Source of the DNA: a virus
Virus record (IMG/VR): IMGVR_UViG_3300042946_000201
Span: 1-25,174 of that record
Length of the DNA: 25,174 nucleotides
Strand: one strand, 5' to 3'
The number at the start of each line of letters is the position of its first letter. Position 1 is the stretch's first letter. Made by a program: the position numbers and the translations under genes. Below the pieces are notes generated by a model that was given only the letters and a program-made list of their open reading frames with translations, had not been told where the DNA came from and did not search any database. This document shows positions 1 to 25,174 of the stretch, one piece after another.

Positions 1-79
1 CCAAAAAGTCCCATTGTATTTCAACGGGTAATTGGATTGATAAATTCGTTATTGGTAATTTAAAATAAAAGTTATTCAC
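1..79 (-). CDS. Start of a further unknown gene, cut by the left window edge
   Basis: A frame opens with GTG at 79-77 and stays open to the window edge, reading MNNFYFKLPITNLSIQL and then PVEIQWDFL. It overlaps the last 8 bases of the upstream 584-residue gene (GTGAATAA), matching the tight packing elsewhere in this operon. The peptide looks like real protein sequence, but only about 26 residues are visible, so no function can be given. From its place after gp25, gp6 and two large tail proteins it is probably another virion protein. There is no Shine-Dalgarno sequence, as for the other genes here. An alternative ATG at 14-12 lies in another frame and leaves too little sequence to judge. Confidence 0.55.
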   Translation of the reverse strand, partial: MNNFYFKLPITNLSIQLPVEIQWDFL

Positions 80-1826
80 AAGGGTCTATTGTTGGTTGTT
101 CAATTACGTTTAATTCTTGATATTCCATACCTTCAGGTATTACCCTAAAAATATAATTAGTATATGGATAATGCGTTCCGTTTAAAAATGGATAATTCAC
201 ACCTAATCCAGTACCATCTACATATCCATAACTATATATATCTCTCCATTTAAACGCATTATCTAATGTAGAAAAATATGCGTAATTTGGTACAGCATCT
301 GCCTCTTGAGGGTTAGCTTCCTCGATATAGTTTGAAAATACTCTAATCTTTAAACTATAATGGGGTTGATAATAATAACCTCTTGGGTTAGTTAAAACAT
401 CACTATCATTAATATTAAATACTGTGGGATTATAAGTTATTTTGTGGTATAAATTTGATATCACACGTTCTCTTTGCTCGTAATCATTCCATTCACATAA
501 TGCCCCATCTAATAAATCACCTTCTTTTAATGGATTAATATTTTTGAATGTATATGTTACACTATTATCAGTTCTCGTATATGTATTATATGTAAAATTA
601 GTATTGGATTTTGATTTTGATGTAGTCCACCAATTTGTTGGTGTTCCACTACTTGGTAGATTGAATAAATAACCTTGTTTTAATTGTCTCCCAGGTCCTA
701 ATGTCCACCCAAAATACCCTCTCCATATTGTGGTGAAAAATAATTCAGTTATTGGTCTTTTTTGATTATCTAATAAAGGACTAATCGTGATGTCAGTATT
801 GAATGATAATGTATATGATTGTGCTCCTTCTAATATTGATACTCTAGCCACTTGATTAGGGGTTAACCCTGAACTTTCGTATTTCTTTTTTGTACCAAAA
901 ACATTTTGTTCAAATCCCGCTTTTACCATTATGGCATCATCAGGATTTGTTAAAATTTTATGTCTTCGTACATAATATTTTGATATAGTATCACCAGTTT
1001 TCGTATTAAATATAATTCTTTTTATTGTCCCTGTAACACCATTGTTAAATGTTGTTCCTGTGAATCCAGTGTCAACAATATTAAATGTATATTGATTTGT
1101 GTCATACCCTTCATTCCCTAAAGAATACACTTGGAATGTATCATTCCCATTATAACTGAAATCCATTTTGAAAAATTCTCCAATTCTTAACCCATGTTTG
1201 ATTGGACAATTAAACGATATTAATGGTCTTCCAGCATAAGTTCGTTTTTGAATTACAAATGGAATACCAGTTGATGCTGACCAAGAAAATGGAGTGTTTG
1301 TTGAATTAATAGCTTCTAGTTCTCTATCAACATTATCAAATGGATAACTTAAATAAAACCCCCAATTATATGAACTAGCACTCTTAGCAATGAAATCAAT
1401 ATGTGGTGATGTTGAACCAGATGGTATTGTATATCCTAGTATATTGTAATCATTTCTGACAAAATCAAATTCATAATATTGGGGATATCCTGACCAGGCA
1501 ACATTGGGTGATTGTTGAACACATTGAGCTGCCGCAGATATTTCAGGATTAATATAATAAAGATTGTTTTCAAATGGGGTATAATTTGTTGAACCACTTA
1601 AAGTATTTTTAAATAGTAATGAAAACTTACAAGATGGTCTGAATATATCAGATAATTGTCTTTCTTCATTGAATACTTGTTCTAGTCCAACGTTAACACT
1701 TCTGTCAAACTCGTCCATTTCTTTCTGAGTTTGTAAAAGTGGTATTTGAAAAAGTAGGTTTGTATTAGGTGCAGATTTGTACCTAAGTGAACCTAAAACT
1801 ACTCTTAAATTATCTATATTTCCCAT
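72..1826 (-). CDS. Putative baseplate/tail structural protein, 584 aa
   Basis: I do not recognise a named family. The protein is 584 residues, rich in Tyr, Asn, Thr, Ser and Phe, with beta-like patterns throughout and no signal peptide or membrane segment, as is usual for phage tail-fibre or baseplate proteins. Near the N terminus it has SVNVGLEQVF (residues 43-52), nearly the same as SINVHLEQDF (residues 16-25) of the gene just upstream. The C-terminal 60 residues are aromatic-rich. Its ATG overlaps the TAA of the 1770-residue gene (TAATG), so translation is probably coupled and the two products are likely made in related amounts. In T4 the wedge genes run 6, 7, 8, and this gene holds the position of gene 8, although I see no convincing similarity to T4 gp8 (334 residues). 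The virion role is inferred from context. Confidence 0.75.
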   Translation of the reverse strand: MGNIDNLRVVLGSLRYKSAPNTNLLFQIPLLQTQKEMDEFDRSVNVGLEQVFNEERQLSDIFRPSCKFSLLFKNTLSGSTNYTPFENNLYYINPEISAAAQCVQQSPNVAWSGYPQYYEFDFVRNDYNILGYTIPSGSTSPHIDFIAKSASSYNWGFYLSYPFDNVDRELEAINSTNTPFSWSASTGIPFVIQKRTYAGRPLISFNCPIKHGLRIGEFFKMDFSYNGNDTFQVYSLGNEGYDTNQYTFNIVDTGFTGTTFNNGVTGTIKRIIFNTKTGDTISKYYVRRHKILTNPDDAIMVKAGFEQNVFGTKKKYESSGLTPNQVARVSILEGAQSYTLSFNTDITISPLLDNQKRPITELFFTTIWRGYFGWTLGPGRQLKQGYLFNLPSSGTPTNWWTTSKSKSNTNFTYNTYTRTDNSVTYTFKNINPLKEGDLLDGALCEWNDYEQRERVISNLYHKITYNPTVFNINDSDVLTNPRGYYYQPHYSLKIRVFSNYIEEANPQEADAVPNYAYFSTLDNAFKWRDIYSYGYVDGTGLGVNYPFLNGTHYPYTNYIFRVIPEGMEYQELNVIEQPTIDPCE

Positions 1827-4800
1827 TATTGTATTCTTTCAAAATTTATCCATTTTTTAGCGAATCTATCCCAAGCACTTGCACCTTTCTTTAAACCAAA
1901 ATAAAAATAAAATGGTGCTCCAACTGTTATTGTGTCAAAATTAGGATTATTTTTATCCCAAGAACTACTCAAAGGATTCAAAGAAGGTTGGGTATAAAAT
2001 GGCGAAGTCGGTGGTGTAGGTGCTGTAGGATTATCAATTGAATATATGTAACCCTTGTAATCATTAGCAAATTGACTCGTATTTGTTCTAAAATATCTTG
2101 AATCTCTATTTGCTCTATCCAAAGATTGGTACTTATGTCTATGGAAATACGCCTGATTTATTGGTTTTCTATACCAATCATTTTTTTGAGACCCAAAAAT
2201 ACTATTATTAGGTGAAGTATCATTGTTAGGGGTTATTTCCCATTGATAAAATGGTACTTCTTGTGAATAACAATAAAAATTGTTAAAAGTACAATTGCTA
2301 TTCAATATTCCTTGACTATTAATAATAGTTCTTTTAGGTGTAATATAATCTCTTAATTGTGTATCAGAAGAATAAAAAATACCAAATATAACATCATCAT
2401 TTGAACCAGTATTAAAATAAACAGGGTCAATTACGAATTGATTAGCTAATAATGGTGGTACTATAGAATTTGTATCAATACTAGGATAATTTTCAGCTTC
2501 AAATGGGACAACACCAAGTTCAGAATTAATTGATATCATTTGAGCATAATCAGCATCAACTGTTAATCTATCTCTACTAAAATAATTAAAAATATTACCA
2601 CCAACATTAGGATTTCTAAATCTTCTACGATAACTCGTATTTAATAATCTAGTTATTATTAATATATTTAAAATCTCTGATACATCTTGATATGATGTGC
2701 TATTAATTCGATTAACCACATATCCATCATATTCATCAGAAAATACTAATTCTTGTATATAATCGGAACGAGGTCCCAAATCCATTATTGTTGTTGGAAA
2801 CAATAAATTTTTATTACTAGTACTATTAGGCGCTGGTATACCTATAAATCCATTATTTGTTAACCCAGTTCTAAATGGACTACTTCTATAATAAAAATTA
2901 TTAGTATCTTCTTCATAATAGATAGTATTTCTACAAAAATTTGGTTCTACATTATTATTACTATCAAAGAATTTATTGTTTTTAAAAGCAAAGGCATATA
3001 AAGTACCATTAACCCAATTTTGCGTGAACAAATGTGAAAAAACATTTCTACAAGCCCCAAAAGTGATATTGGTTCTTGATACCCATTCAATTATTAATCT
3101 TATGTCTTCGGGTAATGATATTAAAACTTTAGTAACTAATTTATAACAACCATTATCAAATATTTTTTTATTTTTAAATTTTTGACAATCACCTTCATTT
3201 ATAATATATCTTCCACCACCAGGTAATTGACTATTTCGTATTGGTCCATTAGCCTCAAAATCATAACAAGCCAAATTTCGACTATCACTACATTTATTAG
3301 TTGATTGTAATAAATCAAATGTGAAATTAGGAATCTCTTCATTGTTATTATCACCATCTTGCACAATACCTGATGAACCACCAGTATTGGCTGGGACTTC
3401 AAATGTACCTTCATCAGGTATAATATATATTGCAAAATTTTGATTTTGTTGTAAACTATACGATATACCACAAGTTTCTAATAATCTATCCGATGTTGGT
3501 AATCTATCAGAACGCATTACATATCTCCTATTTGGAGAAGATATGAATTGAGTTGTTATTCCAGAAAAATACATTGGTCCAATGTATATTTTATATTCGT
3601 ATGTACCTGGGTCACTAAATGCTGTGTCTTGTAAAAAATAAAAACCACTACCCCCAAGTGTAGTTAGTGAAGCCATTATTGACATCATTGACCCGCCTTC
3701 AACAATTTCACCTTGATAATAACCTCTTGTTTTGTCAGATGGTGTTAATGGTGGTGTTGGTGGTGTTGTTGGTATATTTGGGTCGTTAGGATCTAGTCTG
3801 AATAATCCACTACCAATATAATCATAGTCGTATATAAATTCGTTTTGACTAGGATAAAATCCAATAGAATTAATGTTTACTGTTATTACATCAGGTGTTG
3901 GGGTTCTTCTAAATAAAGGATTGTTAATCCATTGAACATCAGTTTGACATGGGGCTGGTGATTGTGTAAGACTTCCATTATTATTAGGAGCTGAGTTTAA
4001 AGTATATGAAGAATCAAATGAAGAATAATAATGAGTTAAATTTGAACTATAAGCACTAAAGCCAAGTGGGTTATAATCAAATGTAGGGTAAAATAAATAA
4101 CTTAATGAATAAGTATCTTGTGTTGTTTGTGTATTTATGGCACTATGTCTAACATTTTTAAATCCACCTTGTACTGGTATATTTAATTTATAAGAACCTT
4201 GAACACTAACAAAAGTTGGATTTTGTCTGCCAAATATTCTACCTAAATCATATTTTATATTTACTCTAGTTGAATATGGGTCAACACCTCTATTTAATAT
4301 AACAATAATTTGTTTGTCATAATCCTCTAATGATGTTAATGGATTTATTAATACCGATATTCCTCTAGGGTCGTTATTAATAGTATAAAATTTAACATTC
4401 ATTTCCATTGGGGGACCTAATACTCTTAACCAAAATGAATTATCTAAAAATAGTGCCGATGATGGAGCTCCGGCTATTTGTGCGAAGTTACTATATGTCA
4501 TCGCAGTAATTACTTGGAAATATTCAATATCTGTTGGAAATTTGTGATAGTTTGTATTTCCTGAATTTGGTTTTGGAATTGTATATTGTGTAGTTCTTGG
4601 TGACCCATTAGGTAAGATATGGTCAACATTAATAGTTACCGTTGGTGTTGTTGTTGACGCATAAATACTTTCCCCACTAATTGAATTAGTACCATATATG
4701 TTTAATGAAGCACCACTATAATTAGTATCTTTAGTAGAATTTGGATTCACAAAACTCAAAATAGTTCCACCTGAAAGTAATGGTAAACTTTCTGGTGTCA

Positions 4801-7138
4801 TCATCATAACTATTACATTATCCGTATGATAATTTGGAGTTGTATTAGTTAACAAATATGGTTGTGCACCATTACCATTATATGCATAACCCCCACCATT
4901 TAAAATAGGTTCAACAGATACATATACTTGATTAACCCCTCCACCTGGATTTGTAATAGGATTTCCATCAAAATATTTTGATTTTACATTAAATAAATTA
5001 AATCTTTCAGCTAAAGTAATACTTCTAGTAAAAAATTGTGCTTTACCATATTGTGGATTTCCATCATCATCAATATATTCGTATTGTGCGTTAACACTAG
5101 CTGGAACTTTACTATATGACCTAACTCTATTAGTCCCAAATTGGACAAAATATCCTGTAATTAATTGATTATATACAGCATAATTTATATCAGTATCAAA
5201 CTGATCAAGATTATATGCACCACCTTCGAAGTTAGTGATTTGAATCCCTGATGCGTTTTGTTGTGGTGGAAAACTTTGTAAAAATTCTGAATTATTACCA
5301 CCTTCAACATTTCCTTCCGATTCATCACCATCATCACATTTACAAAATTCACATTGGTCATATAACAATAGTGGTAAATTTATTCCTTTAAATTTTATTT
5401 TAAAAAATAAAATATTCAAAGTTGTTAGTGCGGCAAATACTGAAACATAAACAATTAAGTCTTGAATATATATGGCCATTAAATAGTTAATAATTGGATT
5501 AGCAGCAATAAATAAAATAAATTGCAAGACACTTATTATTATATAACCCACATAACCTATAAGTATTGGTAATAACACTATTCTAATTAACCCTACTAAA
5601 AAATAAAAAAAATGAAGTAAACTTACTAATACCACTAATATTGGTTTAAAAACATAACTTGCGAAGGTGTATAACAAGTATATAAAATCCCATCTAAATG
5701 AAGCATCGTTTGTTGGGAACTTATTATTTGTACTTTCACAAGTATTATCTAATATATTTTTAATTGATATTATTCTATTTGCTAAAGTTCCTTTTCTATA
5801 TTGGTCAATTAATTGTGACACAGTATAAACTTTATTATATGAAAATTGATAAAAAGTATCTTCACAATCAATCGCGGATTGTGGGTCAACATAATCATCC
5901 CAACTTAAACTAAAAGCATAAGATTTTTTTTGTAATATTGGGTCAATAAATGCTCCCGACCCCACATATTCTCTAATATTTGGAACTAAAAAGTAAGCTC
6001 TTTTTACATTCTCATCCAAACTTGGTGATTGATTCCACTTAATTTTAAATCTATATTTCCCTCTTGTTGGGATACCAATAGTAGGGTTGTTTGATAACAC
6101 TCTTTCACCGAATTCATTTGTTGTGACATAATCCAAATTCATTGGTAAATCCACTAACCAAGTACCATTATCGTCAATAACTTGTCCACCACTTTCAAGT
6201 TCGTACTGTTCCAAAACTGGTTTACCAGTATCATCGTTAAATATTGTTTGTCTTATTGCTAATATTTCACCAGGACCTGCAACTAAACTACATAATTCAC
6301 CTTGTGCAAATTTTGGTTTACAACCACTTTTTAGTGCCAAGTTATCAACATCGGAAAACATTGACCCCATAAAAATTGCTGCAGGTTGAATCACTACATT
6401 AGTCTCAGCCGATAAGTCAAAATCAGTTCTATTAATTCCAATATTACAAACATCTGGTTGACCCCATAATGGTTCAACTGTTATTATTCTATTGATAGAT
6501 ATTATTTGAGGTAATTCATTGAGATTACTTGAAGATTTGAATTTTGTACCTGAAACTTGAGTCTCAGTTGCCAAACCAGTTCTGATTAAATCTTGTGGTG
6601 CTAGTGAAAATTCACCAATATCTGATAAATCAATATCAACATGGATTGTTTGAGTTCCAAGTGGAACACCAAATATCATAAAGTCACCACTTTCATTTGT
6701 CACTGCGGTATATCTATAATACTTGTCAAATACCTCAATGTAACTTTGATTCAATAATACATCCTCTTTGTCAAAAAAAGAACCTGTTGGAACGTGGTTT
6801 GAGTATGACCTTACATAAGGTAAAAGGTTATATCTATAACCAAGGTCATTTAAATCTGATACTGAACTATAAGGATATAAATCAGATATAATTGGATTAT
6901 TTGCATCAATACTTGATAATGGAACAAAGATAGAAACCTTACAATTTGGTACACCGAATCCATTATTAATACTAATCCTACCGATTACAACACCGTAATC
7001 TGAACATTGTCTTGTGTAAATATCACTCTCCAAAATCTTAATGGAAAGTATTTCCAAAAACTCAAAATCTTGTTCTAAATGTACATTAATTGACTTATCT
7101 ACCCCAACTTGGGTTCTTATTCTATATGAATTTGACAT
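1826..7138 (-). CDS. Giant baseplate-operon protein with a polytopic hydrophobic core, 1770 aa
   Basis: Unrecognised as a whole. Residues about 45-175 look like a carboxypeptidase-regulatory/transthyretin-like beta domain: a stretch resembling G.I..NNGFGVPNCKVSIFVP, then YTAVTNESGDFMIFGVP. Residues about 486-580 are almost uninterruptedly hydrophobic, enough for three or four membrane helices, with sparse charges (K498, R519, D560). A Cys cluster follows (C596, C599, C601) and then an acidic stretch. The remaining 1150 residues are Asn/Tyr/Ser/Thr-rich, with a Pro linker (PTTPPTPPLTP) near residue 1125 and several more Cys around 1215-1290. It follows gene 6 and precedes a TAATG-coupled 584-residue gene, the position of T4 gene 7 (1032 residues), so a wedge or peripheral tail role is likely. 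A membrane-like core is unusual for a wedge protein. The alternative is a tail-carried protein that enters the host envelope. Confidence 0.8.
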   Translation of the reverse strand: MSNSYRIRTQVGVDKSINVHLEQDFEFLEILSIKILESDIYTRQCSDYGVVIGRISINNGFGVPNCKVSIFVPLSSIDANNPIISDLYPYSSVSDLNDLGYRYNLLPYVRSYSNHVPTGSFFDKEDVLLNQSYIEVFDKYYRYTAVTNESGDFMIFGVPLGTQTIHVDIDLSDIGEFSLAPQDLIRTGLATETQVSGTKFKSSSNLNELPQIISINRIITVEPLWGQPDVCNIGINRTDFDLSAETNVVIQPAAIFMGSMFSDVDNLALKSGCKPKFAQGELCSLVAGPGEILAIRQTIFNDDTGKPVLEQYELESGGQVIDDNGTWLVDLPMNLDYVTTNEFGERVLSNNPTIGIPTRGKYRFKIKWNQSPSLDENVKRAYFLVPNIREYVGSGAFIDPILQKKSYAFSLSWDDYVDPQSAIDCEDTFYQFSYNKVYTVSQLIDQYRKGTLANRIISIKNILDNTCESTNNKFPTNDASFRWDFIYLLYTFASYVFKPILVVLVSLLHFFYFLVGLIRIVLLPILIGYVGYIIISVLQFILFIAANPIINYLMAIYIQDLIVYVSVFAALTTLNILFFKIKFKGINLPLLLYDQCEFCKCDDGDESEGNVEGGNNSEFLQSFPPQQNASGIQITNFEGGAYNLDQFDTDINYAVYNQLITGYFVQFGTNRVRSYSKVPASVNAQYEYIDDDGNPQYGKAQFFTRSITLAERFNLFNVKSKYFDGNPITNPGGGVNQVYVSVEPILNGGGYAYNGNGAQPYLLTNTTPNYHTDNVIVMMMTPESLPLLSGGTILSFVNPNSTKDTNYSGASLNIYGTNSISGESIYASTTTPTVTINVDHILPNGSPRTTQYTIPKPNSGNTNYHKFPTDIEYFQVITAMTYSNFAQIAGAPSSALFLDNSFWLRVLGPPMEMNVKFYTINNDPRGISVLINPLTSLEDYDKQIIVILNRGVDPYSTRVNIKYDLGRIFGRQNPTFVSVQGSYKLNIPVQGGFKNVRHSAINTQTTQDTYSLSYLFYPTFDYNPLGFSAYSSNLTHYYSSFDSSYTLNSAPNNNGSLTQSPAPCQTDVQWINNPLFRRTPTPDVITVNINSIGFYPSQNEFIYDYDYIGSGLFRLDPNDPNIPTTPPTPPLTPSDKTRGYYQGEIVEGGSMMSIMASLTTLGGSGFYFLQDTAFSDPGTYEYKIYIGPMYFSGITTQFISSPNRRYVMRSDRLPTSDRLLETCGISYSLQQNQNFAIYIIPDEGTFEVPANTGGSSGIVQDGDNNNEEIPNFTFDLLQSTNKCSDSRNLACYDFEANGPIRNSQLPGGGRYIINEGDCQKFKNKKIFDNGCYKLVTKVLISLPEDIRLIIEWVSRTNITFGACRNVFSHLFTQNWVNGTLYAFAFKNNKFFDSNNNVEPNFCRNTIYYEEDTNNFYYRSSPFRTGLTNNGFIGIPAPNSTSNKNLLFPTTIMDLGPRSDYIQELVFSDEYDGYVVNRINSTSYQDVSEILNILIITRLLNTSYRRRFRNPNVGGNIFNYFSRDRLTVDADYAQMISINSELGVVPFEAENYPSIDTNSIVPPLLANQFVIDPVYFNTGSNDDVIFGIFYSSDTQLRDYITPKRTIINSQGILNSNCTFNNFYCYSQEVPFYQWEITPNNDTSPNNSIFGSQKNDWYRKPINQAYFHRHKYQSLDRANRDSRYFRTNTSQFANDYKGYIYSIDNPTAPTPPTSPFYTQPSLNPLSSSWDKNNPNFDTITVGAPFYFYFGLKKGASAWDRFAKKWINFERIQ

Positions 7139-7214: not shown

Positions 7215-9053
7215 TCAAGTGAAATTAACGGTCTTAAGATTCTTGACTCTCACATTAATATCCTTATTAGGAAAACGAATTTGATATGTTTGACTTGGTT
7301 CGGCAAATATTGTATCATCAATTAATTCAATTTGTTTGGTCTCCGCATCCAAATATCTTTGTGATGTTTGTGACGATGAATATTGGCCTCCAACCTTATT
7401 GAATACTTGAATGTCAGATACAGTTAATATACCATTTTGAGATTGGATTAATCTTCTTATTTCGGATATATTAACATTTTGACCCATTTGTCTATTACCT
7501 GGATCCATATAAGTTGATACAATATCAATCACTTGAGTTACAAATGCACCTTGATTCTGAGTATTATCTAACACAACATCAATATTAAATCCCAAATCAA
7601 TTACATTTGCGGTTTCAATTGAAATGTAGTCATTTATCATTCTGTAATTTGACAGATAGTTTGCAATATTACTTTTTAATGTATTTGATATAATTTCAGT
7701 TAATCTCCCACTATCATCATATGACAACATTTTAATCTTTAATTTGTTATTTTCTTCAGTTATAGATACTTTGGCAGGAGCACCAAATTGTGATGGCATA
7801 GTTCTAATAGTTGATTCGTAATCATTAATTGTTACCGCTCTATTTTGTGCCGCAAAGTTAAATGACACCAAGTTTCTGATTTCTTCATTTGTGGGAGCTC
7901 CAGCCCCACCAATTGCCGCAGTTACATTGTTACAAGACAATGAATTAATAACACTCGTATTTACACTTGTTGATGGTCCATTTACAGCGAATGAAACTGT
8001 ACCAATATTATTAATAACATTAACACCTAAATTACTTCCAGTTCCACCACCCACTCTATATTGAATAAACATAGTAGTATTAGCCTTTAATGTACTACCT
8101 AAAGCCAAGTTATTAGAGTACTTATATAAATTCAATTTAAATCCATTTCTTGCAAATTCGGCCAATTGTTCATCGGCTGATTGTGTTCCACCACCAAATG
8201 TCATTTTTAAAAATCCTTGTGGAGTATATTCAGTAATGAATTTTGTGTTAGTTTGCAAGTATCTTCCTACTTTTATGCCTGGATTATCAGATACCTTGGT
8301 TGGGTCTTCAATAAAAACTCTATCCTCAATTAATGCTTTAACCTCATACCATCTACCCTCCAATCCTTGGAATTCTTGTTCAGATGGGATACTTGCATAT
8401 TGTGTTCCATCTTTTAATAGTACACTAGTCACACCCAATACATTTCGTTCAGGTAAAAATAATTCAAAGAATGGTTTAACATCGTTTGGTGTTACAACAC
8501 GTTTGAATACCTTTGTTATACCATTTACAACCGTTTCCCTCTTGGTAATGGTATAATTTAATAATCGGTTATTTGAATCAAAATTGGGTATTTTTAAACG
8601 ATTTGGAAAACCATCACCTCCAACTGGGGAAGAAAAATCAATATCATATACAGTTTCAAAAATTTGGCCAGCACCATTTATTTGAGCACCTCTCCTTAAT
8701 ATTCCACAATATCTTAAATCTTCTTTGTCACCAAAAGCTGGAACTGTTATTGAAAAATCAACCAAGGCAACTGATGGTCTTTGTCCTGGTATTTTTAACC
8801 CATATGTTCTAGCTATATTAAATATTGATGACCTTTGTTGAGCATATTGGAGGATTGTTTCTTGAATACTTCTGTCAATGTTAAATTGTAAGTTGTCTGA
8901 AATAGCCGCATTTAAATCCAATAACGCAGAAAATATAGATGCGTCATTGAAATTATCAATTAAGTCTGGGTAATATGTTCTTGTAAAGTTAATTAACTCA
9001 GTTCGGATTTGTTGAAAATCCCTAGTTGTATATGATATTTTTTTGTTTGCCAT
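7215..9053 (-). CDS. 6: Baseplate wedge protein, gp6/baseplate J family
   Basis: This 612-residue protein resembles T4 gp6 (about 660 residues), the wedge subunit that forms the continuous ring around the baseplate hub. The N terminus (SYTTRDFQQIRTELINFTR, then a PDLIDNFNDASIFSALLDL-type stretch within residues 6-50) is the typical start of phage gp6/J-like proteins. It is followed by a helical region with NLQFNIDRSIQE and later by a Gly-rich beta region (FGGGTQSADEQLAEF, RVGGGTGSNLGVNVI). The C-terminal third (NDYESTIRTMPSQFGAPAK and onward) is the conserved J-like part. The stop of gp25 lies only 2 bases before the ATG, so gp25 and gp6 are one transcriptional unit and their products are wedge partners in T4. 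The start is supported by this spacing and the MANKKISYTTRDF opening. The stop is TGA. Confidence 0.93.
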   Translation of the reverse strand: MANKKISYTTRDFQQIRTELINFTRTYYPDLIDNFNDASIFSALLDLNAAISDNLQFNIDRSIQETILQYAQQRSSIFNIARTYGLKIPGQRPSVALVDFSITVPAFGDKEDLRYCGILRRGAQINGAGQIFETVYDIDFSSPVGGDGFPNRLKIPNFDSNNRLLNYTITKRETVVNGITKVFKRVVTPNDVKPFFELFLPERNVLGVTSVLLKDGTQYASIPSEQEFQGLEGRWYEVKALIEDRVFIEDPTKVSDNPGIKVGRYLQTNTKFITEYTPQGFLKMTFGGGTQSADEQLAEFARNGFKLNLYKYSNNLALGSTLKANTTMFIQYRVGGGTGSNLGVNVINNIGTVSFAVNGPSTSVNTSVINSLSCNNVTAAIGGAGAPTNEEIRNLVSFNFAAQNRAVTINDYESTIRTMPSQFGAPAKVSITEENNKLKIKMLSYDDSGRLTEIISNTLKSNIANYLSNYRMINDYISIETANVIDLGFNIDVVLDNTQNQGAFVTQVIDIVSTYMDPGNRQMGQNVNISEIRRLIQSQNGILTVSDIQVFNKVGGQYSSSQTSQRYLDAETKQIELIDDTIFAEPSQTYQIRFPNKDINVRVKNLKTVNFT

Positions 9054-9055
9054 AA

Positions 9056-9514
9056 TTAAATATTGATAATTATAAAATCACTTGAATTAAATGCTGAATC
9101 AGTTATTGTGTAATCTATTCTGATTTTTGCGGTATGTTCTAATTGTCCTATATTTGTAACACTAAATTCTTTTTCTCCCTCACTATTAACATAAAAACCT
9201 TTATCTTCCTCACCTTGTGATGCTGGGGTAATTGAGATGTTTGTCAATGTTAATCCTGGTAAATATTCTTCAACTGAAGACCTAATCTCAGACTCAATAT
9301 CTGAAAATGTTGGCCCATCTAAAGGTTCGAATAAATATTCATATAATCGTGTCCCAAAATCAGGTAAATAATATCTTGTACCTTTTCTAGTTAATATTAG
9401 ATGAATTAGATTACTCCTAATTTCATCATCACTTGTTTGTGATAAAGATAAATAATTACCCTCGTATGAATCTCTAAAAGGGAAATTTATTCCGTATGTT
9501 ATTCCATCTGCCAT
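9056..9514 (-). CDS. 25: Baseplate wedge subunit, gp25/GPW family
   Basis: A 152-residue protein of the gp25-like (GPW_gp25) family, about the length of T4 gp25 (132 residues). The diagnostic stretch is IRSNLIHLILTRKGTRYY, then LPDFGTRLYEYLFEPLDG (within residues about 32-70), followed by the family's helix (FSDIESEIRSSVEEYLPG) and a C-terminal beta strand pair. In T4 this small protein has a lysozyme-like fold without proven catalysis and joins wedge to sheath. It is the first gene of the baseplate operon, lying just after the strong terminator that closes the ribonucleotide reductase gene, so its transcript must start in the 81 bases between them or come from readthrough. The leader has no Shine-Dalgarno sequence. 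Confidence 0.93.
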   Translation of the reverse strand: MADGITYGINFPFRDSYEGNYLSLSQTSDDEIRSNLIHLILTRKGTRYYLPDFGTRLYEYLFEPLDGPTFSDIESEIRSSVEEYLPGLTLTNISITPASQGEEDKGFYVNSEGEKEFSVTNIGQLEHTAKIRIDYTITDSAFNSSDFIIINI

Positions 9515-9595: not shown

Positions 9596-12010
9596 TTAAG
9601 ATGAACAACCGAAACAATCGAATGGTGAATCAATTGGTTTACTAATCACATCAACGTGTGGTAATGTTGGAGTTACTTTTGGTTTATCTATTTTTGATAT
9701 ATCTACAGCCAAATGTTTTGCACCAGTTGATATTGCCTTAGTTCTTACATAATAACACAATGTTTTCAATCCTTTTTGCCAAGCGTGGAAATGTGATGAT
9801 GTTATCTTTGATAAAGTTGGGTTACCCATATAGATATTCATTGATTGTGATTGGTCAATAAAAGGGCCTCTATCAGCCGCCATATCAATCAATTCTCTCT
9901 GTGATATTTCCCATATTGTTTTATACTTCTTCATCAAATGTTCAATTCTTTTAACTTTGAAGTTGTATTTCTTATCTTCTGTATCTAAGTAATTGTTGAA
10001 GTTTATATTTTGAATTGAACCCTCATTTAGAATAATTTCGTTTTTCAAATCTTCACCCCAAATTCCAAGTTTCTCAAAGTCAGCAATTAGATATTTGTTT
10101 ACAATCATAATCTCACCACCCACTACTCTTCTATTAAAGATTGCTGAATGTGCTGGTTCAGTCATTTCATAAGAACCTGTTATCTTAGCAGAACTCGCAA
10201 CTGGCATCTGTGCTGTAAATAATGAATTACATATACCATACTTCATAACATTTTCTTTCAAACCTTTCCAATCCCATCTTCCTGATAAATCAGATTCAGT
10301 TAATCCCCACATATCATATTGGAAAACACCTTGCGACATTGGTGAACCTTTGAAATATTCATACCTTTGGTATTCTTCATCGTGAGCCAATTTATTGCTC
10401 TCAGTAATTGCTGCAAAGTATATTGTTTCAAATATTTCTTTATTTAACTTTTTAGCCTCATCTGATGTAAACTCATAATCCATTAGATAGAATACATCAG
10501 CTAAACCTTGAGTTCCAATAGCAATTGCTCTTTGTTCTCTACCACCCTTTTCACCCTTACTTGTTGAATAATTGTTGATATCAACAACTTTGTTCAACGC
10601 TCTTACTACTTTTTTGGTTTCGTTATAAAGTTCCTCAAAATCAAATTGCGCATCGTGTACGAAGTTCTTTAATACCATTGAAGAAAGGGTGCAGATTGCT
10701 GTAGTTTTTTCATCAGTATATTGATAAATTTCATTACAAAGATTTGATTGTTTAATCACCCCAATGTTTTGATGATTTGTCTTTTTATTAGCACTATCTT
10801 TTGAACATAGATATGGAACACCAGTCTCAATTTGAGATTCAATAACTTTTGTCCACACGTCTTGAGCTTTAATTTTTTTACCCAATCCCATACGTATAGC
10901 CTCATTATAAACATTCTCATATTCATCACCATAAACATCTTGTAATGCGGGTAATCCAGCCTTTTTGATGTCATTAGGACAGAATAAATACCAATCACCA
11001 TTTTCTCTTACGGCTCTCATAAAGTTATCAGGTATCCATAATGCCGTAAATAAATCTCTTGCTCTTAGTTCTTCAGCACCTGTGTTCTTTTTGATTTCCA
11101 ATAAATCAATGATGTCTTTATGCCAAGGTTCAAGATAAATTGCTGCAGAGCCAGGTCTTCTACCTTGTTGATTAAAGAATCTTAATGACTCGTTAACAAT
11201 CTTTAAATATTTTAACAATCCACCAGCAAAACCACCTGATGTAGATAATCTACTCTCCTTACTTCTAATATTAGACATACAAAGTCCAATACCTGCGGCA
11301 TCAGCTGAATAAGTAGAAATATCAGTCATTGTGTTAAGTAATCCTTCTCTTGAATCCGCATCATTATAATGTAATACACAAGATGCCAATTGAGGTATCT
11401 TTGTACCAGAATTAATCATAATTGGTGTTGCTGGAGAAATAAGTTGGTTTGATAATGACTTGTAGTATTCTATAGCTTCTTCAAATGATTTTGTAACCCA
11501 TAAAGCTACCCTCATATACATATGTTGGGGTCTTTCAATAGTTACACCTTTTGGTGTTTTAAGTAGATACATTTCATATAATGACCTCCAAGCAAAATAA
11601 TCAAAGTTATAATCATTCTCGTGATTGATTATGTTATCAATATTAGACGCCCCATAACTTTCAATGGTTTTCATTAATGTCTCATTAACAATACCATCAA
11701 CGTGTAAAGTGTGCATTGTATTTGAGAAACTTGGGTCAGTTTCTTTATGATATGATGATATAGCAACAGAGGAAGCCAATCTCGAATAATCGTGATGACT
11801 TCCAGTATATGATGCCGCAATTTCATAAATCAACTTATCAAGTTGTTTGGTTGAAATAATACCTTCAGTTGGTACTGAGGTGATAACTTTAATGAATATT
11901 TGGTCAGAATTAACGTTTAGGTTTTTACTTGCTCGTTTAATTCTTGTTTGTATTTTTGTGGGGTTGAATGATACAACCTCACCATTTCTTTTTTGAATTC
12001 TTAATGACAT
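9596..12010 (-). CDS. nrdA: Ribonucleoside-diphosphate reductase large subunit, class Ia
   Basis: Reduces NDPs to dNDPs together with NrdB, supplying dNTPs for phage DNA synthesis. The protein is 804 residues. Residues 1-90 are an ATP-cone (MSLRIQKRNGEVVSFNPTKI), the usual allosteric activity site. Catalytic residues can be matched to E. coli: C211 (in LASCVL, pairs with C440 in AICTLSS), N423, C425 (thiyl radical) and E427 in SNLCNEI, and the radical-transfer pair Y753-Y754 in LCYYVRTKA. PGSAAIYLEPWH (286-297) is the family signature. The tail ends in C799-x2-C802 (DCFGCSS), the redox pair that reloads the active site. This C-x2-C spacing is like the eukaryotic large subunit (CLMC) rather than the wider E. 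coli spacing. It follows nrdB by 9 bases and is closed by the terminator. All key residues are intact, so it should be active. Confidence 0.97.
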   Translation of the reverse strand: MSLRIQKRNGEVVSFNPTKIQTRIKRASKNLNVNSDQIFIKVITSVPTEGIISTKQLDKLIYEIAASYTGSHHDYSRLASSVAISSYHKETDPSFSNTMHTLHVDGIVNETLMKTIESYGASNIDNIINHENDYNFDYFAWRSLYEMYLLKTPKGVTIERPQHMYMRVALWVTKSFEEAIEYYKSLSNQLISPATPIMINSGTKIPQLASCVLHYNDADSREGLLNTMTDISTYSADAAGIGLCMSNIRSKESRLSTSGGFAGGLLKYLKIVNESLRFFNQQGRRPGSAAIYLEPWHKDIIDLLEIKKNTGAEELRARDLFTALWIPDNFMRAVRENGDWYLFCPNDIKKAGLPALQDVYGDEYENVYNEAIRMGLGKKIKAQDVWTKVIESQIETGVPYLCSKDSANKKTNHQNIGVIKQSNLCNEIYQYTDEKTTAICTLSSMVLKNFVHDAQFDFEELYNETKKVVRALNKVVDINNYSTSKGEKGGREQRAIAIGTQGLADVFYLMDYEFTSDEAKKLNKEIFETIYFAAITESNKLAHDEEYQRYEYFKGSPMSQGVFQYDMWGLTESDLSGRWDWKGLKENVMKYGICNSLFTAQMPVASSAKITGSYEMTEPAHSAIFNRRVVGGEIMIVNKYLIADFEKLGIWGEDLKNEIILNEGSIQNINFNNYLDTEDKKYNFKVKRIEHLMKKYKTIWEISQRELIDMAADRGPFIDQSQSMNIYMGNPTLSKITSSHFHAWQKGLKTLCYYVRTKAISTGAKHLAVDISKIDKPKVTPTLPHVDVISKPIDSPFDCFGCSS

Positions 12011-12020
12011 AGTTATAATT

Positions 12021-12971
12021 TTAAAAATCGTCTGTAAATGAAATCGTTTCGTTCAATTTAGCTTTTTGGTATTCCATTGTTCTTGATTCAAAGAAATTAC
12101 CCTTTGTTTCAACCGCAATTTGTTCCATAAACTTGAATGGTTGTTCGACATTGAAATGTTTACTACATCCCATCTTTATTAGTAAACCATCGACTACAAA
12201 CTCTAAATATTGCTTCATTAGATTTGAGTTCATTCCGATTAGAGAAACTGGTAAAGATTCTGTAATAAATTCCTTTTCAATTTCCAAAGCTGACAATAGA
12301 ATTTCTTTAATTCTTTTTTCACTTGGTTTATTTTCAACGTGATTATTCAATAAGTGAATTGCGAAATCACAATGTAAGTTTTCATCTTTAAAAATCAATG
12401 AATTAGCATTACAAAGTCCTTGCATCACACCTCTTGATTTCAACCAAAAAATTGAACAAAAAGAACCTGAGAAAAATATACCTTCTACAGCCGCAAAAGC
12501 AACCAATCTTTCTTGAAAAGATGCTTTTTCAATCCAATCCAACGCCCATTTGGCTTTCTTTTGAACTGCGGGTAATCTATCAATAGCATTGAAACATTCG
12601 TCTTTTTCCTTTGGATTTGATATGTAAGTATCAATCAATAAAGAATACATTAAAGAATGGATATTTTCCATCATTAATTGAAATCCGTAAAAGAATTTTG
12701 CTTCAGGGTATTGTACTTCCCTATAAAAGTTCTCAGCCAAGTTCTCATTTACAATTCCATCAGATGCTGCAAAGAATGACAATATGTTCTTGATGAAATA
12801 TTGTTCGTTCTCTGACAAGTTCTGCCACTCTCTGATATCACCAGTCAAGTCAACCTCTTCCGCTGTCCAAAATGCTGCTTGATGTTGTTTGTAGAATTCC
12901 CATATATCATTGTATTGAATGGGGAAAATCACAAAACGATTTGGATTCTCTGTTAATATTTTTTCTGTCAT
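12021..12971 (-). CDS. nrdB: Ribonucleoside-diphosphate reductase small subunit, class Ia
   Basis: Holds the di-iron centre and tyrosyl radical for NrdA. The 316 residues include all expected ligands at E. coli-like spacing: D71, E102, H105, E163, E197 and H200, with radical Tyr Y109 four residues after H105. The segments [30 protein letters not shown] and DENLHCDFA are much closer to eukaryotic R2 (as I remember the mouse sequence) than to E. coli NrdB, and the C terminus FTDDF resembles the eukaryotic R2 tail that docks on the large subunit. It is shorter than mouse R2 (390) because it lacks the long N-terminal extension. Its ATG overlaps the helicase stop (TAATG), and nrdA follows after 9 bases, so the three are likely translated from one message. 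Confidence 0.97.
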
Positions 12972-20223: not shown

Positions 20224-20241
20224 AGATAATAAAAATTATCT
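20224..20241 (-). other. AT-only hairpin at the end of the giant tail gene
   Basis: A 7-bp inverted repeat (AGATAAT / ATTATCT with a four-base loop) overlaps the stop codon of the tail gene. It is nearly all A/T and is not followed by a U-tract, so it is probably weak. It could slow or end some transcripts, or protect the 3' end of the message. It may also be chance in AT-rich DNA. Confidence 0.25.
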
Positions 20242-23200
20242 TAAAACAGAATTATATACATCTATTGATGTTTTTACAATATTTTCAATTTCTTTTAATC
20301 CATCAGAATAAGTTGTTGGGGGTTCTGCCCCAGCTAAAGATTTATAAAAATTTTTACCTAATTCATAATTTGATTCATTAGTGACAATAACAAATTTACT
20401 AATATCGGTTACAGTATTTTGTAATTTTAATGAATTTGGTACATCTTTCCATCTATCAAACATAAAATCTAAATGTTTGTCTAATGAATCAAAATATGCC
20501 AATGCCTCACCTTTACTATCACAAAAGAATTTTTTAGAATATTCTTTAGAACTTGCAAAACGTGCTGAACTTGGTCCCCAATCTTGACCTTCTACTAAAT
20601 TAACTGCCGAATAATTATGACCATAACCTTCAATTATTGTCTCGCCACCTGAGTAAAAATAAATTCTTGCAAACATACAATATCTTAACAATACGGAATC
20701 AGTTCTTGCAATAATTTTATTAATTACGTCTTGTAATGTTTGTAAAGTAACTATTGGTGGTTCAACTACATAAGTGTTGTATTTAGTTCCAGCACTACAA
20801 TTCTGTTGACTATTAACTGTAACTTCAAACGATGATGATTTTGCCGCAACTACATTATTTTTTTCTTTAGCCTTTTCGGCATTTTTTTCTTGTCTATTTT
20901 TTTCAATAATTGATTGTAGTAATTTTTGTTTTAAGGATAGTAAGAAATTATCTATCTTAGGTAGTGATGCAATTGGTTGTCTAATTCCTTCAAATGAGGT
21001 GGTAAATGAACCAGGTCTTATTTGATGATTAACACTTAAAATCATATAAGGTCCACTAAACATTGGTACATTTCTAAGATTAAAATACATTGTTGGTTGT
21101 ATTAAAGCATTACCCATCATTGATACACTACACGTATAACTTCTGTTTTTATATAGATTATACAATGATGTACTCTGAGTTGCACCAGCTCTATTATTAC
21201 CTTGATTTGCTAATTGATTGTTAATTTCTAATGATTCTGATGTTGCAACACCACTATCTTGTCCAACACTAAAAGTGTTAAAAATACCTTGATTTTGTGG
21301 TCCAATATCAACATTAAATCCAACAACTCTATTTGATTTATCCCAATCATTTTTACCAATTAAATTTTCAACTAATGGGTTATCACTAGCACGTCTTAAA
21401 TCAAAAGCATCACTTCTTTTCCTAAAATCCACATTTTCTTTTAAATCTAATTGACCACTAGGTTTTCCTCCATAAAAACAAACCATTTTAGATGTTGAGT
21501 CTCTATAATCAACACTTGTAAATGTTCCAAATAAAGTATTTGCAAAATCTAATGTTGATTCAATTCTTGGTTTAGGATTTTTAACAGAATCTTGCACACC
21601 ATAAAAATTAACATATGATGGTATATTCATAACCATAAAATTATTCTCCACCAAAATTGTTTGCACCATAGATAACATTGAGTTTTTTGGATTAAATGTT
21701 TTTAGAAGAGAATTTAATTTATCTATATCTACCAAAATTTTATCTCCAACATTTCTACTAGCACGATCCATTAATAAAACATCCTCAAATAGTGTTTTTG
21801 TTTTAAAATCATTACCTGCAATCCATTTATCGTTTAATGCTTTAAACATTTCCCATAGTTCTAATTTAGGTTGTGGTTCTCCTTGTATAGCACTACTAAT
21901 TTGTTCTTCGAAATTAATTTTTATATTATCTAACGAATTTCTAATATCAATCATTAATGAATTAACAATCTTATCTCTAAAACCATTTATTTTATTTAGA
22001 TAATTGGTCATAGCAATTAAGAATGGAGATGAACCAATGTTACTAATTGACGATGGTGTTGGTCTATATACAACGGGTGTGACTTGTTCAAATAGTATAA
22101 TGAATTGAGCGTCAGTTGGTGTTGTTGTTGTACTACCAAATATACCAATAATCGTATTGTTAATTAAAGACTTATAATAAATTTCCGAACCAGATGTTGT
22201 ATAAACATCATTGTTTGGTGGTAAAGAATATTCACTCTCAAACAACAAAACACCATCCTTGTTTGTAAATGTTGTTCTGAATTTTGTTTCTAATTGTTGT
22301 ACATTTATAGTGTCACCACTTCTTAAATCGGCAACCGCAACTAATGTTGGTAATATTTGATTTGTTGGGTTTGGTGGTGGAATATAATTACTTTGAAACT
22401 GATTGAGTTTTTGTGTCGCATATATTTTAATAATTGGTGCTAACAATTTTACATTTTCTGGTGTAAATTCAACATTTAAATCAATAAAAAAGTCAGTAAT
22501 ATATGAACCACTATTTTTATATTTTAATTCTGGTATTTCTGAAAATCCAACATAAGTAAATAATGCGGCCCAAGCTTCAATATAATTATTTTGAGAATTT
22601 GCTAAAGTGATAACCCCATTTAATGTGGGTAAAGCATTTGGTGTATTTGTTGTATATTTGTTCCATTCAACTTTATCAACTATTGGTAATGTTGAAAATG
22701 ATGTAAATAATCTTCTATTGTAATTTGATGGATTTCCATATTTAAATACAACATCAAATTCCAAAAATTTACCGAGAATATCTTGGACATTGATAAATTG
22801 TGCAGTTTGAGCTTTACTAACAAATTCATACCCAGTACTTCCTGTTGTATTTGATATTCTCAACATAGTCCTCATAAGACCTTGGAAGTTTCTAAAACTT
22901 TTGGTTAATGGAGTGTCAGTAAGTACAGCAGAATTTGTTATTTGTATCTCAGTATCGTCTGAAAATTCATTAGCATCATAAATTGATTTTGAGAATTTCA
23001 AAAACTCATTTTCAAATTTATCCAATACATCTTTTTCAAATACTGAAAACATTTCATCCATCTTCGCATATTCATTATTTAATCCTGTTATTGTAAATGC
23101 GTCCTGAAATGTGTCTCCAGTTTTAATCATTTTTAAGTATTCTTCTGGTAATATTTTTTTGACTCTTGAGTTGTCAAAATATCCATAATTTGGCGCTGTC

Positions 23201-25174
23201 CAAAATAATCTAACTGAACCATTATATATTGCACTATTACCTAATATTGGTTGTTTTATAGTATTGTTTTGTCCAAAACATTCATTTTTGGTTTGGTTAA
23301 ATAAAGTACCGCTTGATGGTAATAAATACATAAAATTACCATCATTAGTTGTGATAGCCAATGACCAAGGAATTACTCTGATAGTTGTTTCTGCATTTAT
23401 TATAGGTAATGTTGCGTTATAATCTATAATTGCATTATTAACATAATTCATAGTTAATCCTGAATTATCTAAAACATTTTGGATTGTTGCTGATGTATAA
23501 TTATTACTTGGAACATTAACAACCGAGAATAATCCAGTTGAACCTGTTTGGGTTGGTGATACTTGATATTTACCAATACCTCCAGGTGTTCCATCAATTT
23601 GAGAAACAATTGTTGTGTCAGATAAAAGATTAACCCCAGCTAAAATTGAACCAACTTGTAATCCATTTGAACTTATTTGTGTAACAGTTAACGTTGTTCC
23701 ACTAACATTACAAGTTCCATTGATTTGTGAAGTAATTAATTCATACCCATTAAAAAATACACTAAAATCATTGATTAACTTTGGGTAGAATCCAACATTA
23801 AGTAGTGTTGATGTTTCTAGCCCAATGATTGTATTTGTTTCTAATACAATATCATAAGGTGTATTATCAATTGTTAAATTATATGTCTTAGTTGCGGCTG
23901 ATGTTATTGGGTCATAGTTTGGTACTCTATCAAAATCTTTCCAAGATTCATCTAAAATATCCACACCACTTTCAATAAATTTCTTATATCTATGCCAAAT
24001 TGAACCATATTTTAATATCCAAGCATATGGAAGTTTGTGTATTGCCCCAAATTTTTTAATGGTTGCAAAAATATAATCTTGTAATATATTTGTTCCATTT
24101 TCATATTTAAGATATTTCTCTTTTAAAGTTGCTAAAGGTAAACTATTAATCAAATAATAAGCTGAACTAACAAAAGGATTTTTATCGTAATTTCTGAATT
24201 TTTTTAACCCATCTTGAATTGAGTTAATGAAATATGGTGTATTAAGTATTGATGTTGTTTGTTCAAAATTAACACCACCACTATAATTCAAATATCTAAT
24301 AGTACCCTCAGTTAAAATTTGGTCTTTTGGGGGTCTATTGTAGAAACTTTTCAACATATCATTCGTTGGTGCTGTTGTTTGAGAAGAACGATTAATAGGT
24401 TGTGGTTCTGTATTATTTTTTTGTGCAAAAATAGTAAAAGGTTTCCCAAATATATTAGGTGTTGTTGGTAAAAAATTAGCTATAACTTTATTGGTTGTAT
24501 TATATTTTAATATTTCAGTTACAACAAATGCTGATTCAGGAGTTTCAATAGATTCACTTTGAGCTAAATATTTTTTAACCCAATTTTTATTCGTAAAAGG
24601 GAAAGTATCTGTGAAATCAAATTTTTTATTTGTGTTTGATGTTAAAAACTTTTCAAATTCAACTTCACTTGTTAATGTTATCTGAGGTTGTGAAATTGAT
24701 TCACCTAATATATTTGAGTTTAAGAATTCAAAACTACCATTAGTGATTTGATTCCTAATATAAGGGGTATTAAATATACCTCTAACAAAATTCTGCCAAC
24801 TTTCACCAACTCCGTTATTTGAAAACTGACGTAATAAAGATTCAAAGTTACCTGAAGAAATTATATAATTTTTTAACTTATCCACAATAAAAGGACTTCC
24901 TCCATCTAAAGCGTTTTTTACATTTGTTTTTTCACTTTCAGATATAAATTTTATTATTGGGTCAATAAAAGATGGTGTATCTTCCACCCTAGATATTTTT
25001 GAAAAGTTAATTATATATATAATTCTTTCATATATTTCATAGAAGAATTTAACTTCTTCTTGATTACTAAAAACATTATTACCAATTGGAAATTCAATTG
25101 CGTTTATTGATATTCTTTTTATATCACTAACTTCATTCGAATTTTTTCTTTCTGCTGGTGGGGTGTCTCTTTCG
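20236..25174 (-). CDS. Giant multi-domain tail hub/spike protein, C-terminal part only
   Basis: The frame is open from the stop at 20236 to the right window edge. An internal GTG at 24987 is not a credible start, because the bases before it still encode protein-like sequence (FPIGNNVFSNQEEVKFFYEI). Numbering from that GTG, residues about 418-490 form a Gly/Thr/Ser beta domain (SGTTLTVTQISSNGLQVGS, then GGIGKYQV) of a kind common in phage fibres. Residues about 1225-1335 (NVDIGPQNQGIFNTFSVGQ, YMILSVNHQIRPGSFTTSFE) resemble the hub fold of gp27/gpD-like proteins, whose last strand says that the field sets up previous coordinates. A Lys/Glu helix follows. Residues about 1425-1555 (GYGHNYSAVNLVEGQDWG, then FDSLDKHLDFMFDRW) look like a glucosaminidase-type domain lacking a clear catalytic Glu. 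With at least 1640 residues it is much longer than T4 gp27 (391). A hub role is likely but inferred; the true start is outside the window. Confidence 0.75.
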   Translation of the reverse strand, partial: ERDTPPAERKNSNEVSDIKRISINAIEFPIGNNVFSNQEEVKFFYEIYERIIYIINFSKISRVEDTPSFIDPIIKFISESEKTNVKNALDGGSPFIVDKLKNYIISSGNFESLLRQFSNNGVGESWQNFVRGIFNTPYIRNQITNGSFEFLNSNILGESISQPQITLTSEVEFEKFLTSNTNKKFDFTDTFPFTNKNWVKKYLAQSESIETPESAFVVTEILKYNTTNKVIANFLPTTPNIFGKPFTIFAQKNNTEPQPINRSSQTTAPTNDMLKSFYNRPPKDQILTEGTIRYLNYSGGVNFEQTTSILNTPYFINSIQDGLKKFRNYDKNPFVSSAYYLINSLPLATLKEKYLKYENGTNILQDYIFATIKKFGAIHKLPYAWILKYGSIWHRYKKFIESGVDILDESWKDFDRVPNYDPITSAATKTYNLTIDNTPYDIVLETNTIIGLETSTLLNVGFYPKLINDFSVFFNGYELITSQINGTCNVSGTTLTVTQISSNGLQVGSILAGVNLLSDTTIVSQIDGTPGGIGKYQVSPTQTGSTGLFSVVNVPSNNYTSATIQNVLDNSGLTMNYVNNAIIDYNATLPIINAETTIRVIPWSLAITTNDGNFMYLLPSSGTLFNQTKNECFGQNNTIKQPILGNSAIYNGSVRLFWTAPNYGYFDNSRVKKILPEEYLKMIKTGDTFQDAFTITGLNNEYAKMDEMFSVFEKDVLDKFENEFLKFSKSIYDANEFSDDTEIQITNSAVLTDTPLTKSFRNFQGLMRTMLRISNTTGSTGYEFVSKAQTAQFINVQDILGKFLEFDVVFKYGNPSNYNRRLFTSFSTLPIVDKVEWNKYTTNTPNALPTLNGVITLANSQNNYIEAWAALFTYVGFSEIPELKYKNSGSYITDFFIDLNVEFTPENVKLLAPIIKIYATQKLNQFQSNYIPPPNPTNQILPTLVAVADLRSGDTINVQQLETKFRTTFTNKDGVLLFESEYSLPPNNDVYTTSGSEIYYKSLINNTIIGIFGSTTTTPTDAQFIILFEQVTPVVYRPTPSSISNIGSSPFLIAMTNYLNKINGFRDKIVNSLMIDIRNSLDNIKINFEEQISSAIQGEPQPKLELWEMFKALNDKWIAGNDFKTKTLFEDVLLMDRASRNVGDKILVDIDKLNSLLKTFNPKNSMLSMVQTILVENNFMVMNIPSYVNFYGVQDSVKNPKPRIESTLDFANTLFGTFTSVDYRDSTSKMVCFYGGKPSGQLDLKENVDFRKRSDAFDLRRASDNPLVENLIGKNDWDKSNRVVGFNVDIGPQNQGIFNTFSVGQDSGVATSESLEINNQLANQGNNRAGATQSTSLYNLYKNRSYTCSVSMMGNALIQPTMYFNLRNVPMFSGPYMILSVNHQIRPGSFTTSFEGIRQPIASLPKIDNFLLSLKQKLLQSIIEKNRQEKNAEKAKEKNNVVAAKSSSFEVTVNSQQNCSAGTKYNTYVVEPPIVTLQTLQDVINKIIARTDSVLLRYCMFARIYFYSGGETIIEGYGHNYSAVNLVEGQDWGPSSARFASSKEYSKKFFCDSKGEALAYFDSLDKHLDFMFDRWKDVPNSLKLQNTVTDISKFVIVTNESNYELGKNFYKSLAGAEPPTTYSDGLKEIENIVKTSIDVYNSVLR

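Follow-up and report, generated by a model that had tools for sequence, protein, structure and literature searches.

Encoded directly after the baseplate wedge genes gp25 and gp6 of a phage contig, a 1770-residue protein, which we call protein X, carries in its middle a conserved hydrophobic module that probably sits in the bacterial membrane, to judge from its hydropathy and from the way its sequence varies among relatives. We read X, tentatively and at slightly less than an even chance, as a large baseplate-operon protein whose modular helical domain would lie in the bacterial inner membrane and tether the baseplate to it. The gene lies in the window, the whole stretch of 25,174 nucleotides that was analysed (positions 1 to 25,174 of IMG/VR virus record IMGVR_UViG_3300042946_000201), and the protein proves to be common to hundreds of large aquatic and rumen phages while having no function in the libraries searched.

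Gene neighbourhood and relatives of protein X

Profile matches bear out an earlier note on this DNA, which had placed X directly after gp25 and gp6: a gp25-like baseplate wedge gene (9056..9514; GPW_gp25, E 2.6e-10; phrog_261) is followed by a gp6-like wedge gene (7215..9053; phrog_219, E 2.6e-21; Baseplate_J above cut-off, from the PHROG and Pfam searches) and then, 76 bases beyond the gp6 stop, by the open reading frame of X itself (1826..7138). The start/stop coupling to a further tail-like gene that had also been described is present as well, the stop of X overlapping, in the string TAATG, the start of a 584-aa gene (72..1826) that belongs to no known family. All four genes lie on the minus strand, and their order is kept in the relatives compared, as far as the contigs reach; the 584-aa gene follows X in every one of them, with a distant homologue present even in the rumen locus L105, and beyond it the order persists through genes of about 270, 390, 302 and 1005 aa. 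This gene order suggests that X is present in the virion. At one locus (L010:8001-13044) X and the helicase gene are each split by apparent frameshifts, possibly assembly errors; both are intact in L003.

Searches for known families with X returned no PHROG match by profile, no PDB sequence match, no tblastn match among 50,697 phage records and no cultured relative in INPHARED, and Pfam offered CarboxypepD_reg alone, marginal and below cut-off. IMG/VR holds at least 531 relatives, which fall into two clades, one aquatic, to which the window belongs, and a second that was found by searching with a yak-rumen homologue and includes contigs of up to 412 kb. That homologue gives the second clade its name here, the rumen clade, and the name does not describe the source of its other contigs. 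Bacterial contigs yielded one match to X, on a yak-rumen MAG that carries the label Paludibacteraceae, and the cultured phages with the closest gp6 genes are Flavobacterium phage immuto and Microcystis phage Mel-JY01, at about 25% identity; from these two observations together we infer that the hosts of X phages are Bacteroidota.

The genes that follow gp6 in immuto, Mel-JY01 and the 484-kb LR756508 show no relation to X by profile comparison, and the hydrophobic block is absent from them; T4 gp7, gp8, gp9 and gp10 were ruled out as homologues by the same means. A true relative with a predicted structure is protein A0A8S5LA66 of Myoviridae sp. ctPuP5, a 994-residue piece of an unannotated protein, which Foldseek aligns to X at E 1.7e-41 with 39% identity over 451 alignment columns. 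A fold search with the model of X residues 640-1770 gave no match, a result that does not show a new fold, and the helices of ASIC and OST that the module matched were uninformative.

The AlphaFold2 model of X, built from a 67-sequence alignment and with a mean pLDDT of 73, is beta-rich and multi-domain. At its N terminus lies a beta-sandwich domain (residues ~28-250; 6389..7057, minus strand) that may be of a transthyretin or carboxypeptidase-regulatory-like kind, for which VIA-align gives only transthyretin-like matches, with Z of about 5-6.5 over 80-105 residues and Pfam detects CarboxypepD_reg in 7 of 12 family members (best E 9e-4). This is the best-conserved part of the family, with pair identities of 0.58-0.69 over residues 1-392.

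A conserved hydrophobic module in the middle of X

The module occupies residues 484-580 (5399..5689, minus strand), as seen in hydropathy, a dG-type scan and the AlphaFold2 model. Residues 486-580 (window 5399-5683) are indeed almost purely hydrophobic, as first reported, with D, E, K or R at 4 of 95 positions and a single H. Kyte-Doolittle 19-residue maxima reach 2.70 (500-518), 2.58 (520-538) and 2.20 (561-579), where any single hydrophobic 19-mer is weak evidence, the maximum over 2000 shuffles of X reaching 3.12. The block as a whole is another matter: over its best 95 residues the mean hydropathy is 1.88, whereas 5000 shuffles of X give 0.52 +/- 0.14 and never exceed 1.20, and chance was rejected as an explanation for it.

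On a dG-type scale whose parameters are approximate, segment 513-535 scores -2.1, 561-583 scores -0.2 and 492-512 scores +0.96. AlphaFold2 draws two helices in the module (485-545 and 551-580, pLDDT about 75-89), the first of them continuous over 61 residues and so too long for one membrane span. The three to four membrane helices for which the earlier note had seen room are less certain: the scan gives two segments with dG below 0 and a third that is borderline, and the module is modelled with two helices. Segments hydrophobic enough for an integral membrane protein are present in X (Kyte-Doolittle up to 2.7, dG -2.1) and throughout the family (94/94).

Absence of the block from close homologues, which the earlier note would have taken as a refutation, was not observed: all 94 aligned aquatic relatives keep it, as do 97 of 107 members of the distant rumen clade. 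Across the aquatic relatives the Kyte-Doolittle maximum inside the block is 2.17-3.05, against a median of 1.31 outside it; the module ranges in length from 54 to 141 aa, and the dG-type scan finds at least one segment below 0 in 94/94 and two or more in 69/94. From the level seen over residues 1-392, pair identity drops to 0.29, nearly without gaps, in the first helix (residues 484-520; 5579..5689, minus strand), and to 0.15, with about half of the positions gapped, in a variable part that nonetheless stays hydrophobic (residues 521-580; 5399..5578, minus strand), before climbing back to 0.45 at the cysteine motif behind the module. The sequence drifts while the hydrophobicity stays, so what is conserved is a property and not a sequence.

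The first helix bears a polar stripe, formed by D484, S/N491, T/Q495, Q/T/K498, H509 and R/K519, in which D484 is conserved in 47 and H509 in 52 of 53 representatives; over 37 residues its periodicity is 101 degrees, a pattern reached by 1 in 2000 shuffles. The stripe stays in phase throughout 484-520, which points to one helix and disfavours a separate hairpin turn within it. The corresponding helix of rumen-clade X also has a polar stripe, its helical periodicity found separately, here with an invariant Asn. With a reduced alphabet, variability in helix 1 is greater on the polar face, a soluble-protein-like pattern that leans slightly towards burial; this lean has weak significance in each of the clades (44-45 of 2000 shuffles) and disappears when the full alphabet is used.

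Cysteines stand on both sides of the module. The cluster C596-x2-C599-x-C601 described in the earlier note is present, with the consensus LPxLxYPDCxxCxC, although at 5336..5353 (minus strand) it falls just outside the interval that had been given for it. C596 and C599 occur in 94/94 aquatic members and C601 in 90/94, and in the 4 members that lack C601 an additional cysteine stands farther upstream, near residue 589, and looks like a relocated metal ligand. Ahead of the module lies C467 (5738..5740, minus strand), invariant in 94/94 and a possible fourth ligand alongside 596, 599 and 601; the other invariant cysteines of the aquatic family are C45, C231, C283 and C425. We take the motif to be a probable metal site by which the ends of the module are pinned; C467 and 596/599/601 bracket the module, and a site shared between them would hold both ends on one side. 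The AlphaFold2 model neither supports nor contradicts such a pairing, its pLDDT being under 50 at residues 464-484 and 591-630.

Far downstream, between residues 1283 and 1402, X has a second conserved set of cysteines near an NxWxNGxLY motif: C1283, C1291, C1331 and C1363 occur in every member that reaches this part of the protein, and C1402 in 69 of 77. A motif similar to NxWxNGxLY comes after the module in rumen-clade X too.

A small predicted membrane protein linked to the module in the rumen clade

The two clades have the N-terminal domain and the first hydrophobic helix in common (hhalign 100%, columns 3-533). Nearly all rumen-clade loci (L125-L204, for example L137 and L178) have in addition a small open reading frame of ~72-100 aa between gp6 and X. 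Its product, typically ~80 aa, starts with M-(A/G)-C-(N/A)-C-K and has one very hydrophobic, single-pass segment; by the dG of that segment it is almost surely an integral membrane protein. Searches with the small M-x-C-x-C-K proteins gave no PHROG match below E 0.04. The small protein was found in the rumen clade only, with none in the window or the aquatic loci, including 240 kb of the 322-kb relative.

Searching from the one member without the X helix brought in its relatives, and 107 non-redundant rumen-clade members were compared. Where the X helix is present, in 97 of them, a membrane-type small protein accompanies it in 93 cases, with none detected in 2 and the gene cut by the contig end in another 2; the 10 members without the helix include no membrane-type small protein, 6 having a weakly hydrophobic version and 4 none detected. 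Cross-tabulated, the X block and the membrane-type small protein thus give 93/0 against 0/6, with 8 members in which the small gene was cut or not detected. The small protein has a median dG of -2.97 (90/93 below 0) when the neighbouring X is block-positive and dG values of +1.1 to +2.25 (6/6) when it is block-negative, and the X module itself has a median of -0.74 in the first set and values of +4.3 to +8.0 in the second; the rumen modules are borderline, with dG >= 0 in 27/97.

The 10 block-negative members form one clade (support 100), and each of the two traits changes once, on the same branch. Many separate losses of the block together with the hydrophobicity of the small protein were accordingly rejected, and since the co-loss is a single evolutionary event it proves nothing statistically.

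A different small hydrophobic open reading frame lies between gp6 and X in the L105 subgroup, at L105:9468-9770 and also in L127 and L133. In L105 it encodes 100 aa (MSGIPKVIYNIVRG...), with a Lys/Arg-rich stretch behind the hydrophobic segment.

Comparison with known systems

The earlier note took virion wedge proteins to be normally soluble, a premise that needs qualifying: the record of T4 gp7 states that its 'C-terminus is predicted integral membrane domain'. Like X, T4 gp7 comes directly after gp6 in a tightly packed wedge run, exceeds 1000 aa, is multi-domain and has a membrane-like segment. That segment (879-900; dG +0.1, Kyte-Doolittle 2.07) lies between domains V and VI and is single and C-terminal, whereas that of X is a block of 54-141 aa in mid-protein; X also begins with its putatively transthyretin-like beta domain, unlike gp7. 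Compared directly, the two reach an hhalign probability of 0.3%, and the Gp7 helical, V and VI domains are unmatched in X by Pfam (E 0.1 or 1). X is placed like a wedge protein and is not, by sequence, a member of the T4 gp7 family; its role probably resembles that of gp7.

The tape measure protein of TP901-1 offers another parallel, being large, encoded in the tail operon and endowed with hydrophobic regions that are proposed to enter the membrane, one of them essential for infection (PMC5099701). X differs in sitting after gp6 in the wedge run and in its beta-rich model, the tape measure protein being built of repeats. For the small protein a works-like model is T4 head assembly, in which a structure of a tailed phage is begun on the inner membrane through an anchored connector chaperone (PMC3185693); that case concerns the head and ours the tail, and the likeness is functional, with no homology claimed.

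Membrane tether, buried bundle or pore

The membrane reading draws on hydropathy, on a sequence that drifts yet is always hydrophobic and on the linkage to a neighbouring single-pass protein, and burial within the baseplate remains its serious rival. Under the tether that we favour, the helix of the rumen-clade small protein and the module of X would pair up in the producing cell's membrane, and this association would tether X, and through X the growing baseplate, to that membrane; in the aquatic clade, which has no small protein, the longer module would act in cis. That the small protein is coupled to the module suggests that the two work together in the membrane, in the cell by which both are made. 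Type VI secretion systems have a membrane-anchored baseplate, comparable in logic to the tethered phage baseplate proposed here. The overall pattern suggests contact between the tails of this group and the host membrane, or construction of the tails on it, of a kind not yet described. The more specific proposal, that in this large and apparently uncultured lineage the inner membrane of the host is where the contractile tail is built and that X and its dedicated small Cys-motif protein make up a membrane-tethered baseplate, seems to us somewhat unlikely as it stands.

It is a distinct possibility that the module is instead a helical bundle buried in the assembled baseplate, packed on gp6 or in X-X contacts, and that X is never in a membrane. 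T4 gp7, the wedge protein after gp6, has a segment with Kyte-Doolittle 2.07 and dG about 0, and the protein is nevertheless present in solved structures, deposited as baseplate wedge protein gp7; a conserved core bundle of helices is a feature of contractile wedges (PMC8894135, PMC10457771), and the variability on the polar face of helix 1 would suit such packing. The hydrophobicity of the X family, however, lies far above that of gp7, with Kyte-Doolittle values of up to 3.15 in relatives and several segments; a module of 54 to 141 aa, half gapped in its second part, also speaks against burial, as does a rumen partner gene predicted to encode a near-certain membrane helix. The wholesale loss of the module from one clade that kept the rest of X is more in keeping with an accessory module than with a core of the architecture, and it argues against a universally essential DNA pore as well.

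Such a pore was one of the two readings that the earlier note had offered, burial in an oligomer being the other, with X carried in the virion and its module inserted into the target inner membrane at infection, forming or lining a DNA-entry channel. X does adjoin gp25 and gp6 and has its hydrophobic module; the lining of a channel could be provided by the unbroken polar stripe, in which a His is nearly invariant in the aquatic clade and an Asn invariant in the rumen clade; and tape measure proteins are a precedent (PMC5099701). We nevertheless regard the pore as improbable and found no direct support for it: the place of X in the virion is deduced from gene order, the clade of 10 dispenses with the module, the producing cell is where the partner membrane protein is synthesised, and T4 gp7 is a six-copy component of the wedges, at a distance from the tube tip (PMC3004832). 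For the X block a membrane tether with a partner is likelier than a DNA pore, and X may engage the target membrane at infection, a role with less support than the tether.

With gene order as its only tie to the virion, with a membrane module, and with no structural homologue found in fold and sequence searches, X might also be a non-virion, membrane-anchored helper, either a scaffold for assembly or a factor that modifies the envelope, whose gene happens to lie in the baseplate operon. Strict synteny within the baseplate gene run in all relatives compared, and a size, a beta-rich model and a predicted multi-domain make-up that would fit a structural protein, render this very improbable.

If the module is embedded in the membrane of the producing cell, as the tether supposes, contractile tails of this lineage would take shape on that membrane; if insertion happens at infection, X would represent a new kind of tail protein, one that engages a membrane and is not the tape measure. 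Either reading is open to direct testing, given the small membrane protein linked to X and a natural clade that has lost both traits.

Other genes of the loci

Between a DnaB-like helicase gene and gp25 the window has a class I ribonucleotide reductase pair (9596-12971), in place of which some relatives have a 619-aa gene (L017:2812-4671, L032:3368-5227 and L065:3325-5184). An open frame of 1645 aa, truncated where the window ends, occupies positions 20236-25173 and has weak matches only, to PHROGs of unknown function; the 322-kb relative has a 1664-aa frame at the matching place (L117:6708-11702).
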